A stretch of DNA of 36,967 bases from the NCBI GenBank assembly GCA_022823725.1, contig JAJEHL010000032.1:1-36967 (forward strand), read 5' to 3'. The DNA comes from Candidatus Latescibacterota bacterium (GTDB lineage Bacteria > Latescibacterota > UBA2968). Both the position numbers and the translations under genes were made by a program. Shown one piece after another: positions 1 to 4,705 of the stretch. The notes beneath the pieces are model-generated. The model searched no databases. It was not told the DNA's origin and saw nothing but the letters and a program-made list of their open reading frames with translations. Positions within the stretch are counted from its first letter, which is position 1, and each line of letters begins with the position of its first letter.

Positions 1-1
1 C

Positions 2-136
2 TCCTACATTGAAGGGTGGTATAATCCGCATCGCAGGCATTCTTCCATCGCCTACCAGGCGCCGATAGCGTATGAAAAACTGCATCTATCACAGGCTTGG
101 AACACAAACCCTAAATACTCCACCAAAGCGGGGTAA
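2..136 (+). CDS. IS3-family transposase OrfB (DDE/rve integrase), C-terminal fragment
   Basis: An open frame enters from the left edge and reads SYIEGWYNPHRRHSSIAY, then QAPIAYEKLH, and stops at TAA 134-136. The Y-x-x-x-Y-N-x-x-R-x-H-S-S-(I/L)-x-Y-x-(S/A)-P signature is the hallmark C-terminus of the rve/DDE integrase domain in IS3-family (IS150/IS3 group) transposases. This domain catalyses strand cleavage and transfer. Only about 44 codons are inside the window. The catalytic D, D and E residues would lie upstream and cannot be checked, so activity cannot be judged. The stop codon lies within the inferred terminal inverted repeat, as is common for these elements. Confidence 0.85.
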   Translation, partial: SYIEGWYNPHRRHSSIAYQAPIAYEKLHLSQAWNTNPKYSTKAG

Positions 137-2150
137 CTCCATAACGGAAGATTTTCTGCATGATCTCGGACAACTCGTTCCTCAAGTCATACGCATTTTT
201 AACCGGCAACTCACTCCCTTTATAAAACCAGCGTGGCCCTTCGCTACCCGGCAGAATCAACCGATCAAGGAGTTTTTGAAGATAGCTACGGGCATCATCT
301 GTCATCTGTAGAATTTCAGACAACACCATCGGGTCTGATCCCACCAGCTTATCATCCCCCTGCATCTGAGTTAAACAACACACTTCCAGAGCTGCCTCAA
401 ACAGAGGGACAGGCACCCGGGGCACCACAAAAATAATCCGTTCACTGTGCAGGTAATTGGCAGTCACTCGCTCTGCTTCCTGAAGTTCCTCCGCTGTCTC
501 GGCAATCATATATATAATTTTTCCATCACATCCAACAGGCACATTTAGACATTCGTCCAGTTTTTCGAGACTCCTATACTCTCCCTGTAGAAAACGCCTG
601 ATATGGAAATCACTATTATACCTGACCGGTCGCCAGACAGGGGGACTAGCCTCCTCCGTCAAAAAAGCAAGGAAATCGAATTCCCTTCGCTGCCGTGACT
701 TCTCTTCTTCAAGCCTTCCTCGAAGGTCGGCATCAGTCCCATGCCAAACAGAAACTTCATCGTTGCGTTTTCTGTGTAAAAGGAGTTTCTGGTCTATGAG
801 TTGATCAACAACCGCTTCTTCCTGCTGTGATCCATTACTGACTAATCCCTTATCAGCACATGCATAGCCACGCAGAGCAAATAGCAGCAAATCGCGGGAT
901 GTGCGAGACCGCTCGCCATTTACGCCAAAACCCAACAAACTCACGGTTCTCAGTGCTGTTGCCGCCAGGTCATTATCATCGTCGAGCTTTGAAAGGGCAT
1001 TCTGTGTTTCAAGCCATTGTTTATATGTTCCGCCTACAGCCGTATCTGTACGCATTTCCGGTGAAAAGTATTCGTAGAGATGATCCGGTCTAACATGATT
1101 TTGGAAGTCTATAAAATTGAGAAAACTGAACAACGTCCTTTCATTTTGCGCGACCCGACCAGAAATGCGTGGTAGCAAATACAAAGTAGTGGGTTCCAGG
1201 GGATATGCACGACGCAAGAGCGACTTGAGTTCCGATACAGTAAAGTCGGAAAACAGTCCAAGTTTCTTACACACCGTCGCAGACAACCTTGATTGTTCAT
1301 CAGGCAAGACATTAGAGCCATTCTGTTCGGAAACCACTTCTGATAGCAAACGGTATATTTCTTTACTATCATCGATATACTGAATAGTCTCGAAGCGACC
1401 CTCAATTTTTCTCCATTCTGCACGAACTGAAGCTGGTGAAGTGCTCGCATATTGCAACAACTCCTGGTGCAATAATAAACCGAGCGTTACAGGAATAGCT
1501 ATAGATCGACTCACACACTCAGCTAACAATTGAATTTCACTCAAAGCAGCAGAACGCCCCTCGGCAATCAAAGACTCAATATGGCGTCCAAATTCATCCC
1601 ACAAAATCACAACTCGATCACAGCCTGCTAAACGCGCCTTATCCCGAACCGCGCCGAGCAATTCTATTGCCTGATCAATCGTCTCACACGGCATGGATTC
1701 AATTGTACGCGCTTGACGACCGAGCTTGATGCGCCCCATCCCTTTGAGCGCGGCATCCTTCAGACTTTCGCCCAAATTTTCACAATAGCCCTGCAACGCG
1801 AGTACAAGCCCTTTGTCTTTCCCGTTGCGACGTTCTTTAGAAAACTTGCTCAAATCTGGACTAACTGCTTCCAACTTGTCTTCAATGACAGATAGTATTT
1901 CATCGGCATCGGGACGATTCTCAACCAAATGCAATAAATAGGTCGCTGTAATTGATTTCCCCGTGCCATAGGGCGCAACAACAAAAGACGCCCTGTCTTG
2001 TTCAAAACCGAGCAGAGATTTTATGAGCGGGACACTCTTAGCCGTAGGCTGGTAGTGTACAATCCGATCCGGATATTCTGCATCGTATTGTATGTTGATA
2101 GAACGCAGAAATACTTCAGCATCAAATTTGGCTGTCATTTCAAGCTGCAT
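111..2150 (-). CDS. Large P-loop ATPase of a defence/modification cluster (BrxC/PglY- or Dnd-associated-like), 3' end altered by IS
   Basis: The 679-residue product has a Walker A motif APYGTGKS (residues about 59-66) and a Walker B followed by an acidic pair, VVILWDEFGRH (D186/E187). It is a soluble P-loop NTPase with no membrane segment. The architecture (N-terminal ATPase, long helical remainder) recalls the large ATPases of BREX and phosphorothioation-linked systems; that assignment is by resemblance and context. ATG 2148-2150 is preceded by GGAGAG at good spacing and overlaps the DUF4007 gene by 11 bp, so the two are translationally coupled. The last nine or so residues (GVTPLWWSI) and the TAG stop at 111-113 are encoded by the end of the IS element. 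The native protein was therefore probably longer, and this copy may be inactive. Confidence 0.75.
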   Translation of the reverse strand: MQLEMTAKFDAEVFLRSINIQYDAEYPDRIVHYQPTAKSVPLIKSLLGFEQDRASFVVAPYGTGKSITATYLLHLVENRPDADEILSVIEDKLEAVSPDLSKFSKERRNGKDKGLVLALQGYCENLGESLKDAALKGMGRIKLGRQARTIESMPCETIDQAIELLGAVRDKARLAGCDRVVILWDEFGRHIESLIAEGRSAALSEIQLLAECVSRSIAIPVTLGLLLHQELLQYASTSPASVRAEWRKIEGRFETIQYIDDSKEIYRLLSEVVSEQNGSNVLPDEQSRLSATVCKKLGLFSDFTVSELKSLLRRAYPLEPTTLYLLPRISGRVAQNERTLFSFLNFIDFQNHVRPDHLYEYFSPEMRTDTAVGGTYKQWLETQNALSKLDDDNDLAATALRTVSLLGFGVNGERSRTSRDLLLFALRGYACADKGLVSNGSQQEEAVVDQLIDQKLLLHRKRNDEVSVWHGTDADLRGRLEEEKSRQRREFDFLAFLTEEASPPVWRPVRYNSDFHIRRFLQGEYRSLEKLDECLNVPVGCDGKIIYMIAETAEELQEAERVTANYLHSERIIFVVPRVPVPLFEAALEVCCLTQMQGDDKLVGSDPMVLSEILQMTDDARSYLQKLLDRLILPGSEGPRWFYKGSELPVKNAYDLRNELSEIMQKIFRYGVTPLWWSI
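118..141. repeat. Putative IS3 right terminal inverted repeat
   Basis: The segment begins at the CTCCACCAAAGCGGGG stretch and ends in CA. Read inward from the tip it starts TGGAGTTACCCCGCTTTGG. This matches the general form of IS3-group ends: a TG tip, a CCCCG block, then TTTGGTGGA. The left copy is outside the window, so the repeat is identified by form and by its position just after the transposase stop. Confidence 0.5.
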
Positions 2151-3051
2151 GCTGGTCTCTCCATTGGATCATGTCATAGTGATTTCTCATCCAATCAACG
2201 GGTTGCATTCGCCGAATGCGTATTCTTCTATTTCCTGCGAGACCATCCACTTGGATGTTCTTATTTTTGTCCGCGTTTTCCGCCTGAAGAGCAAGCGATA
2301 ATAGGGATTCACTCGTCAATACAAATGCCTTGCCTGGACCTCCTTCGTGCGTTGCGGCTTCTCTCACGGATATATCGAATGTATCTTTTCCTGTCCTCGC
2401 TTCTTCAAATGCCATGGAGAGGGCATAGCCCAATAAATGAGTGGGAATCTCCTTCTCTCCTTGATGCACCTGGTAATATTTGGACGTGCTAAAATAGCTC
2501 AGTAACCCCAATTCGACGAATGGACATTCAAGCGCATCTTCTGGATCTTTGTCTTCTGCTGGAATAACTCTGGCATAGCTCTGCAACAAGCAAGCAACAT
2601 CTCGCTCAATGGTCTTTTCACTCGGTGTTCGAGACCGTAAGTTTTCTACCTGGCGCAATAGACGCTCTCTGCACATAGACCTTTCAAATCGCGAGTGGCT
2701 AAAATCATTGAAGAACCAGGACCAGGTAAACACCTGACCTCCGGTATTCACCAGATTAACGTGCAGAGCATACCATGTCCCAATATCAACAAAATACAGG
2801 TCTCGTTCATAAACAAGCCTGCCAAGCTCTGTTTCTTCTAACCGAGTCTGACGCCCTTTGCCTTTCACGCGCCGGGCCAATCCCGTTACTTCAAGCCAGT
2901 GACGAATAGAACGGGCCATATTTTTGCCAACGCCGAGCCTATCCGCAACATACTCATCATATAGCAACTCGGGTTCCTTAATAAGTAGCTTGAGTCCTTT
3001 ATGAAGCCATCCCTCTCGAATTGCAAAAGTTTCGTGCCCACTAAATTTCAT
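2140..3051 (-). CDS. DUF4007 family protein (DNA modification/defence associated)
   Basis: The 303-residue protein opens with FSGHETFAIREGWLHKG, the N-terminal signature of DUF4007. After that comes a winged-helix-like segment (VADRLGVGKNMARSIRHWLEV, about residues 36-56). The biochemical function is unknown. From memory, family members sit beside DndA-like cysteine desulfurases, PAPS-reductase-like sulfotransfer proteins and large ATPases in phosphorothioation or BREX-like islands. ATG 3049-3051 overlaps the TGA stop of the desulfurase gene in an ATGA junction, and the 3' end overlaps the ATPase start. The predicted DNA-binding fold suggests a targeting or scaffold role (inference). No truncation is evident. 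Confidence 0.8.
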   Translation of the reverse strand: MKFSGHETFAIREGWLHKGLKLLIKEPELLYDEYVADRLGVGKNMARSIRHWLEVTGLARRVKGKGRQTRLEETELGRLVYERDLYFVDIGTWYALHVNLVNTGGQVFTWSWFFNDFSHSRFERSMCRERLLRQVENLRSRTPSEKTIERDVACLLQSYARVIPAEDKDPEDALECPFVELGLLSYFSTSKYYQVHQGEKEIPTHLLGYALSMAFEEARTGKDTFDISVREAATHEGGPGKAFVLTSESLLSLALQAENADKNKNIQVDGLAGNRRIRIRRMQPVDWMRNHYDMIQWRDQHAA

Positions 3052-4259
3052 GATTTCACCTCTGTCAAACTCGTATTGACATGGTTAAAGTCAATAAGCG
3101 ACAATCGTCGCCGACTAAACCTCCGCAATTGTTCACACAACCGCGCCAGATGTGCAACTGTCTCATCGACATCTTCAACCGTATTAAACTCCGAAAAACT
3201 AAATCGAATACTCGCGTAAGCCTCGGACTCAGACAGACCCATAGCTCGCAACACATACGAAGGTTCGGGCCGCTGATTGGTGCATGCCGAACTCTGAGAA
3301 CATCGAATCCCCTCCTGGTCCAACCGTGCCACAAGTGCCTGACCATCCACATCTCGAAACAGCAAATTTGTCGTATTGCAAACCCGCATATCGGGATCGC
3401 CGTTAATTTCCACATCGGGTATTTGAGCAATGACCGACTGCTCAAAACGATCCCGAAGCGAAGCCATAAGTCCCTGCACATCCTTCAACCGCTCCAACCG
3501 CAACCGAGCCGCAGTTCCCATGCCAACAATACCCGGCAGGTTCTCTGTCCCTGGTCGCAGCCCACCTTCTTGCGATCCGCCCCAGAGCAATGGTAACAAC
3601 TCTTTGGACGGCCTCACATAAAGTGCGCCAATCCCCTGTGGCCCGTGGAATTTGTGTGCAGTAAAAGCTAAAAAATCAACCGGCAACTCTGTTACAGAAA
3701 CGGGCAGTTTACCAACAGCTTGCGCCGCATCCGTGTGACACAACACCTCTCGAGATTGGCAAAGCCGGACAATTCGTTCAACGGGCAAAATCGCGCCTGT
3801 TTCATTATTCACCCACTGCACAGAAACCAGATCGGTATCTGGCGTAACAGCCTCATCCAGTGCTTCCCAAACCAACTGCCCACAGCGATCCACCGGAACA
3901 GATACCACCTCAACCCCTTTTCCACCGAGATAATCACACATCTTCACAATTGACGAGTGTTCTACAGCCGTCGTCACAATGCGAACCCGTTTTCCGATTG
4001 GGGCGCGTTGAACAACAGAATTAAAAACCGTATTATTCGCCTCAGTCCCACTTCCCATAAACACAATTTGATCGGCTTCAGCCCCGACCAACTGTGCAAC
4101 GGCCTCACGCGATGCAACCATTGCTTCGCGCACTCGATCGCCAGCCGAATGGGCGCTCGAAGGATTGCCAAAACCCTCACCCATCACACGCATCATAGCC
4201 TCGCGCACCTCGGACAAAGGCTTTGTCGTCGCATTATTGTCTAAATACACTTCTCGCAT
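3048..4259 (-). CDS. Cysteine desulfurase, DndA/IscS/NifS type
   Basis: This PLP-dependent class V aminotransferase-fold enzyme (403 residues) removes sulfur from L-cysteine as an enzyme persulfide for transfer to an acceptor. Visible features are the N-terminal YLDNNATT, GSGTEANN (about 70-77), the PLP lysine in FTAHKFHGPQG (K203), GGSQEGGLRPGTEN (substrate/cofactor loop), and the catalytic cysteine in SSACTNQRPEPSYVLRAMG (C326). ATG at 4257-4259 is preferred over a TTG two codons upstream because GAGAG lies about 7 bases before it. The downstream DUF4007 gene overlaps by 4 bp and the ATPase follows. A DndA-like role supplying sulfur for DNA phosphorothioation is therefore more likely than housekeeping IscS; no iscU or other Fe-S assembly gene is nearby. 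The assignment of DndA against IscS rests on context. Confidence 0.9.
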   Translation of the reverse strand: MREVYLDNNATTKPLSEVREAMMRVMGEGFGNPSSAHSAGDRVREAMVASREAVAQLVGAEADQIVFMGSGTEANNTVFNSVVQRAPIGKRVRIVTTAVEHSSIVKMCDYLGGKGVEVVSVPVDRCGQLVWEALDEAVTPDTDLVSVQWVNNETGAILPVERIVRLCQSREVLCHTDAAQAVGKLPVSVTELPVDFLAFTAHKFHGPQGIGALYVRPSKELLPLLWGGSQEGGLRPGTENLPGIVGMGTAARLRLERLKDVQGLMASLRDRFEQSVIAQIPDVEINGDPDMRVCNTTNLLFRDVDGQALVARLDQEGIRCSQSSACTNQRPEPSYVLRAMGLSESEAYASIRFSFSEFNTVEDVDETVAHLARLCEQLRRFSRRRLSLIDFNHVNTSLTEVKS

Positions 4260-4349
4260 GATCAACTCTCATAAAAGCAAAATTCGTACCTAAAATTGAA
4301 GTTTTTTCTAAATCCCTGTAAGTTCTCAATCTAAAGCCATCGGTAGATT

Positions 4350-4616
4350 TCAGGCCTTGGACAAATCAGGGCGTTTATGGGTAAAAAGTTTCAACTGATT
4401 TGCATCGGATTGATCAATAGGTTCAATCCGATTGGCAAACTGGCGAATCTCTTCGGCCTCAGCAGAGGTGAAGAGAACGTGCTTATTACGATACCGATGT
4501 CCGAGAGGAACTTTGCCCTCATTCCGCCACCGCCAAAGCGTTTGGCGCGACACATTCAAATCACCTATCACTTCAGTTGCGGAATAATAGGTTACATTGT
4601 CAATCTGAATCGGCAT
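4350..4616 (-). CDS. Small MerR/excisionase-like helix-turn-helix protein
   Basis: The product is 88 residues. It starts MPIQIDNVTYYSATEV and contains an HTH_17/MerR-type motif (SATEVIGDLNVSRQTLWRWR) followed by a wing with YRNKHVLFTSAEAEEI. These proteins read a short DNA site and act as regulators or excisionase-like factors. ATG 4614-4616 was chosen because residues upstream in the frame lie inside the predicted promoter. It is the first gene before the desulfurase-DUF4007-ATPase set, separated by 84-90 bp, and may regulate it. Function beyond DNA binding is not known. Confidence 0.7.
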   Translation of the reverse strand: MPIQIDNVTYYSATEVIGDLNVSRQTLWRWRNEGKVPLGHRYRNKHVLFTSAEAEEIRQFANRIEPIDQSDANQLKLFTHKRPDLSKA

Positions 4617-4676
4617 ATTGATGTCTCGCAATGTTTCAAAGCGTTGTGTATGTCTCTGTATGTAACATCCGGTGCT

Positions 4677-4705
4677 ATCGTAAGAAACGAAAGTGCTGAG
4701 GTCAA
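4677..4705 (-). promoter_or_regulatory. Sigma70-type promoter for the HTH-desulfurase-DUF4007-ATPase set
   Basis: On the minus strand, TTGACC (4700-4705) and TACGAT (4677-4682) are separated by exactly 17 bp. The predicted start is near 4670, about 55 bases before the HTH gene. Confidence 0.6.

Follow-up and report, generated by a model that had tools for sequence, protein, structure and literature searches.

At the left end of a contig of Candidatus Latescibacterota, an insertion sequence (IS) adjoins genes for a large ATPase, a DUF4007 protein, a cysteine desulfurase, and a small helix-turn-helix (HTH) protein, which raises the question of which sulfur-dependent system these genes belong to and whether it is still whole. 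The window analyzed here is the entire contig C15 (36,967 bases) of a 5.3 Mb genome (G000; 51 contigs, 98% complete). Reading of the open reading frames (ORFs) gave the minus-strand gene order HTH, sspA, sspB, sspC, at approximately the positions of the original prediction:

1-141 (+): 3' end of an IS3-type element, with its terminal inverted repeat and the C-terminus of its transposase; inside sspC and at the contig end
142-2150 (-): sspC, 5' 669 codons only; Cdc6/Orc-type AAA+ ATPase
2140-3051 (-): sspB; DUF4007, nickase/triple-wHTH DNA-recognition subunit
3048-4259 (-): sspA, ATG start; PLP cysteine desulfurase
4350-4619 (-): gene of a small HTH protein, 89 aa; HTH_17/excisionase-like
4677-4705 (-): promoter-like site ahead of the HTH gene, TTGACC-17-TACGAT, from a consensus scan

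The predicted coupling of the three larger genes agrees with the measured overlaps, 4 nt between the sspA stop and the sspB start and 11 nt between the sspB end and the sspC start. The start of the HTH gene was placed at the ATG at 4619, because this codon is conserved with two same-genus genomes (G004 and G006), and the gene is hence shorter than the listed ORF. In a Pfam profile search, its product matched HTH_17 at 2e-4, under the family cut-off. Orthologues lie directly upstream of sspA in G006 (93% identical) and G004 (88% identical); the gene is absent in G001, G003, and G007 and degraded in G005. As it is present only in some genus members, the HTH gene is an optional part of ssp loci; its product is a likely local regulator. 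The original prediction had given this gene its own promoter. The gene is real, although shorter, and the -35 hexamer TTGACC is invariant across three genomes; the promoter-like site alone is at chance level, the consensus scan having found 2 sites with 1.0 expected.

The genes are those of an Ssp modification operon

SspA matched the PADLOC SspA profile (2.8e-127) and the SspA structure 6m4j, and its catalytic residues are present (Lys203 in AHKF and Cys326 in SQSSACTN). SspB matched Pfam DUF4007 (PF13182; 1.2e-62), PADLOC SspB (1.2e-112), and the solved SspB structures 6juf/6lb9 (1.5e-24). The SspC fragment matched PADLOC SspC at 8.8e-93, covering positions 4-670 of the 1054 in the profile, and retains Walker A (GTGKS) and Walker B (VILWDE). 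Judged by sequence, the locus is the modification half of Ssp, a phosphorothioation defense system already published. The earlier assignment to a Dnd or BREX-like system thus gives way to Ssp, with DUF4007 as SspB and the large ATPase as SspC. The suggestion that the gene order might define a variant, undescribed system is not sustained: the sspA-B-C-(D) order is canonical, the system is already published, and the window defines no new one. The C-terminus of the window SspA (3048-3105(-)) is 10 residues longer than in relatives, reading SLIDFNHVNTSLTEVKS versus SLLAEVG in all other genus members.

In a maximum-likelihood tree of 22 desulfurases, the window SspA joined six same-genus ssp desulfurases (100/100) and then those of the ssp loci of G044 and G191 (99/97). 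The NifS-type paralogue of G000 on C35, 38% identical to the window SspA, grouped apart, as did two further desulfurase types; certain deep joins of the tree involve long branches, of which the close SspA grouping is free. Clustering with the housekeeping NifS/IscS type, named beforehand as the outcome that would speak against the proposal, was not obtained, and the preference for a phosphorothioation-type over a housekeeping desulfurase is borne out, SspA grouping with ssp-locus desulfurases. The best NCBIfam model for SspA is nevertheless NifS, whose 420 bits fall short of the 531-bit cut-off; the DndA and IscS models also remained below cut-off. Given the tree, and given that the sspA/sspB overlap is kept in all genus members, the view that this is a housekeeping cysteine desulfurase beside unrelated genes can practically be dismissed.

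The SspC fragment also matched the BrxC model (9.1e-44), but the SspC model scored double (310 versus 147 bits). These scores bear on a reading of the locus as type-4 BREX, a system that combines BrxC, a PAPS reductase, and DUF4007 with PglZ and BrxL. SspB, SspC, and SspD are indeed homologous to the DUF4007, BrxC, and BrxP proteins of type-4 BREX, 56% of which have a desulfurase (PMC12839542). We consider this reading very improbable, as intact relatives of the locus carry a stand-alone SspD, not a fused BrxP-DUF4007, and neither PglZ nor BrxL is among their identified neighboring genes. In G000, the PglZ profile found only a PorX-like protein outside the locus. This protein, encoded on C44 next to a histidine kinase, is 524 aa long and has the architecture of a response regulator, for which reason it was rejected as a sign of BREX.

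sspC is cut by the IS element

The sspC reading frame and homology run to base 142 and stop at the IS terminus (141/142), whereas the ATPase ORF spans 111-2150(-). The terminus (TGGAGTT...) is the same as in copies at C1:455 and C46:367822 (91-92% identity by BLAST), and the IS end has 13 matches in G000, several of them at contig starts or ends. The assignment to IS3 comes from the transposase C-terminus as read, not from a database match. Since sspC homology ends at a terminus common to other IS copies, this is a real IS end at codon 669, beyond a mere assembly edge, and the original description of the locus as IS-damaged stands. C15 starts at window base 1; therefore, the sequence left of the IS lies outside the contig. 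The SspC fragment is 88-90% identical over 667 aa to the full-length SspC (1102-1129 aa) of G001, G004, G005, and G007. Thus, 669 of about 1,100 residues are left and the C-terminal ~450 are missing. Full-length SspC occurs in the relatives and not in the window; with only the N-terminal 669 residues of SspC, this is a broken rather than a working Ssp locus. On the sequence evidence, we put the probability at roughly 0.93 that the locus is an Ssp operon, HTH-sspA-sspB-sspC-(sspD-effector), in which an IS3-type insertion has interrupted sspC at codon 669.

Intact sspA-B-C-D is found in four same-genus genomes (G001, G004, G006, and G007; SspD 3.2e-94), with sspD directly 3' of sspC, as the earlier expectation of a PAPS-reductase gene next to the ATPase gene had it. 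The order is also kept in G005, where sspB is damaged. This G005 sspB (L036:2933-3190(+)) appears to lack a large internal part, the first 61 residues being followed by the C-terminal end, and is either a pseudogene or an assembly error.

In the window, the contig ends before the place of sspD. An SspC profile search of the G000 assembly found the window copy alone, with no C-terminal part elsewhere, and a PAPS reductase family search of G000 gave no SspD. At the DNA level, a 2.1 kb query of the sspC 3' part and sspD from G005 was absent from G000. The SspD protein search found none in G000 and served as its own positive control, given its strong matches in five same-genus genomes (G001, G004, G005, G006, and G007). 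No SspE orthologue was found in the G000 assembly. However, a failure to find sspD in an assembly says little about its absence from the cell, because G003 also lacks sspD, its contig ending within sspC.

Three sets of candidates were rejected. DUF262 proteins on C7 and C35 matched only about 100 N-terminal positions of the 766 of SspE; CysH in the cys operon (C43) is an assimilatory CysH, not SspD; and a PAPS-reductase match on C20 arose by chance in a stop-containing antisense frame.

The insertion appears recent and the locus inactive

Compared with five or six same-genus loci, dN/dS was 0.09-0.17 for sspA, 0.18-0.32 for sspB, and 0.15-0.17 for the 5' part of sspC. These values equal those between intact loci, and the surviving genes contain no stops or frameshifts. 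This normal purifying selection suggests that the insertion into sspC is recent. As searches of G000 gave neither the 3' part of sspC nor sspD nor an effector of the sspE type, the locus is probably inactive. With SspC lacking its C-terminal part and sspD absent or cut off from its promoter, phosphorothioation by the G000 locus has probably been lost.

The same absence of decay would also be expected if the operon were whole in most cells, with the IS in a minority of them or the right half on a short unbinned contig, and phosphorothioation active. Contigs of the G000 assembly do break at IS copies, and G003 demonstrates that sspD can drop out of an assembly for technical reasons. Nevertheless, it is the consensus sequence that has the IS terminus within sspC, and the sspC 3' part and sspD are on no contig of a genome that is 98% complete. 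We therefore regard a whole operon as unlikely and retain the disrupted one.

The mechanism and gene set of Ssp are published (PMC8092258, PMC7188994). In an intact system of this kind, SspA would take sulfur from cysteine and hand it to SspD, SspB would recognize and nick DNA, and the SspC ATPase would drive the complex, one non-bridging oxygen on one DNA strand being replaced with sulfur. A linked restriction protein would then use the sulfur mark to attack phage DNA.

Known and candidate effector modules beyond sspD in related genomes

The genes beyond sspD vary between genomes. SspE (890 bits) follows in G001, SspF (907 bits) in G123, a DndB protein in G006, and a helicase, a GHKL ATPase, and a phospholipase D (PLD)-fold protein in G004. 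In G007, sspD is followed by genes for a 235-aa protein, a protein resembling DndB, a PbeA-like HKD-helicase, and a GHKL ATPase, with a transposase in between. In G019, the genes immediately 3' of sspD encode PbeA (635 bits) and a PbeC-like ATPase (187 bits), which makes an Ssp-Pbe combination (L039:1211-5815(-)). The features outside the window are as follows:

L073:1989-6618 (G004), L040:15074-19001 (G034), L072:14425-18688 (G007), and plasmid loci L088-L098: trio of SF2 helicase, MORC-like GHKL ATPase, and PLD-fold protein
L031:4855-7149 (-), G007: DndB-like protein, 764 aa
L031:7154-7861 (-), G007: small 235-aa partner of the DndB-like protein
L035:15513-16562 (+), G006: DndB homologue, 349 aa

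Loci that link the trio to ssp genes come from Latescibacterota, Cyanobacteriota, Bacteroidota, and Alphaproteobacteria. G004 and G034 belong to different families of the class. Between these two genomes, the helicase and GHKL proteins are 86-87% identical, whereas SspA, B, C, and D are merely 38, 32, 23, and 46% identical. This difference indicates that the module moved between distinct ssp operons.

We searched 72,556 plasmids at a GHKL query coverage of at least 80%, and 12 records were retrieved, two of them near-duplicate Trichormus plasmids; the hosts are Cyanobacteriota, Bacteroidota, and Alphaproteobacteria, and Pannonibacter p.BB_2 and Roseobacter pROLI83 are among the plasmids with the trio. 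An SspD homologue was present in the same record in all 12, compared with 77 of the 72,556 plasmids overall. SspD lay inside the inspected stretch in nine of the 11 distinct neighborhoods. A Cyanobacterium plasmid has a cysteine desulfurase in the stretch and SspD about 11 kb away, and an Agrobacterium plasmid has SspF-like genes in the stretch and SspD about 3 kb beyond it. The PLD-fold protein is encoded 3' of the GHKL gene, directly or one or two genes on, in 9/11 plasmid neighborhoods.

Two further arrangements were observed near sspD. The DndB-like protein and its 235-aa partner lie between sspD and the trio both in G007 and on cyanobacterial plasmids (L091 and L093), with 46-47% and 34-36% identity. 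A conserved protein of 812-813 aa follows SspE or SspD in two families (L032:672-3113(-) and L038:15241-17679(+)); the two copies are 56% identical, with a weak HATPase_c_3 match and no PADLOC match.

PADLOC labeled no gene of the trio SspE or SspFGH, and a search of largely open-access literature gave no publication that connects the trio with Ssp. Its linkage makes the trio a candidate for a third restriction module of Ssp. In a 2021 survey of Ssp, 2,211 of 2,678 sspBCD loci were without SspE or SspFGH (PMC8092258). A broader proposal is that the Ssp operon is served by exchangeable restriction modules and that the trio, with the PLD-fold protein as a nuclease and often with a DndB-like protein, is an undescribed phosphorothioate-dependent defense module of at least four phyla, which may explain part of these roughly 84% of loci. 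We offer it tentatively, at somewhat less than an even chance.

For the window itself, a claimed undescribed system is replaced by a named one, and a broken one: the fragment is an ordinary damaged member of a known system, and it is the recurrent trio of its relatives that is apparently undescribed. The 2021 survey left open the restriction partners of most sspBCD operons (PMC8092258), and the relatives point to a specific three-gene candidate.

Comparison with known systems

In published descriptions, SspFGH comprises a Walker-A protein, an FtsK-like protein, and one further, unnamed protein, from which the trio differs in composition. The trio recalls the known MORC/GHKL restriction operons (Iyer, Abhiman and Aravind, 2008, PMC2292703), which likewise combine a GHKL ATPase with an SF2 helicase and sometimes an HKD (PLD-fold) nuclease domain; a term search of that paper gave no link to a PAPS reductase or cysteine desulfurase.

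Dnd (DndABCDE, DndFGH) likewise has a cysteine desulfurase feeding a PAPS-reductase-like protein. However, the window has DUF4007 and a Cdc6/Orc-type ATPase where Dnd has DndD/DndE, and PADLOC gave no DndD/DndE match among the window genes. The PAPS reductase of the relatives is SspD (3.2e-94) over DndC (2e-5), and a Dnd system was rejected.

The closest systems are SspABCD, with SspE or SspFGH, of Vibrio cyclitrophicus FF75, V. anguillarum FF-93, and E. coli 3234/A. Their mark is a single-strand phosphorothioate at 5'-CCA-3', and IscS in trans may replace the SspA-type desulfurase. The window has the same sspA, sspB, and sspC in the same order, and its same-genus relatives also have sspD next. 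It differs from these systems in its IS-cut sspC and missing sspD and effector, and, together with some other members of its genus, in the extra small HTH gene before sspA.
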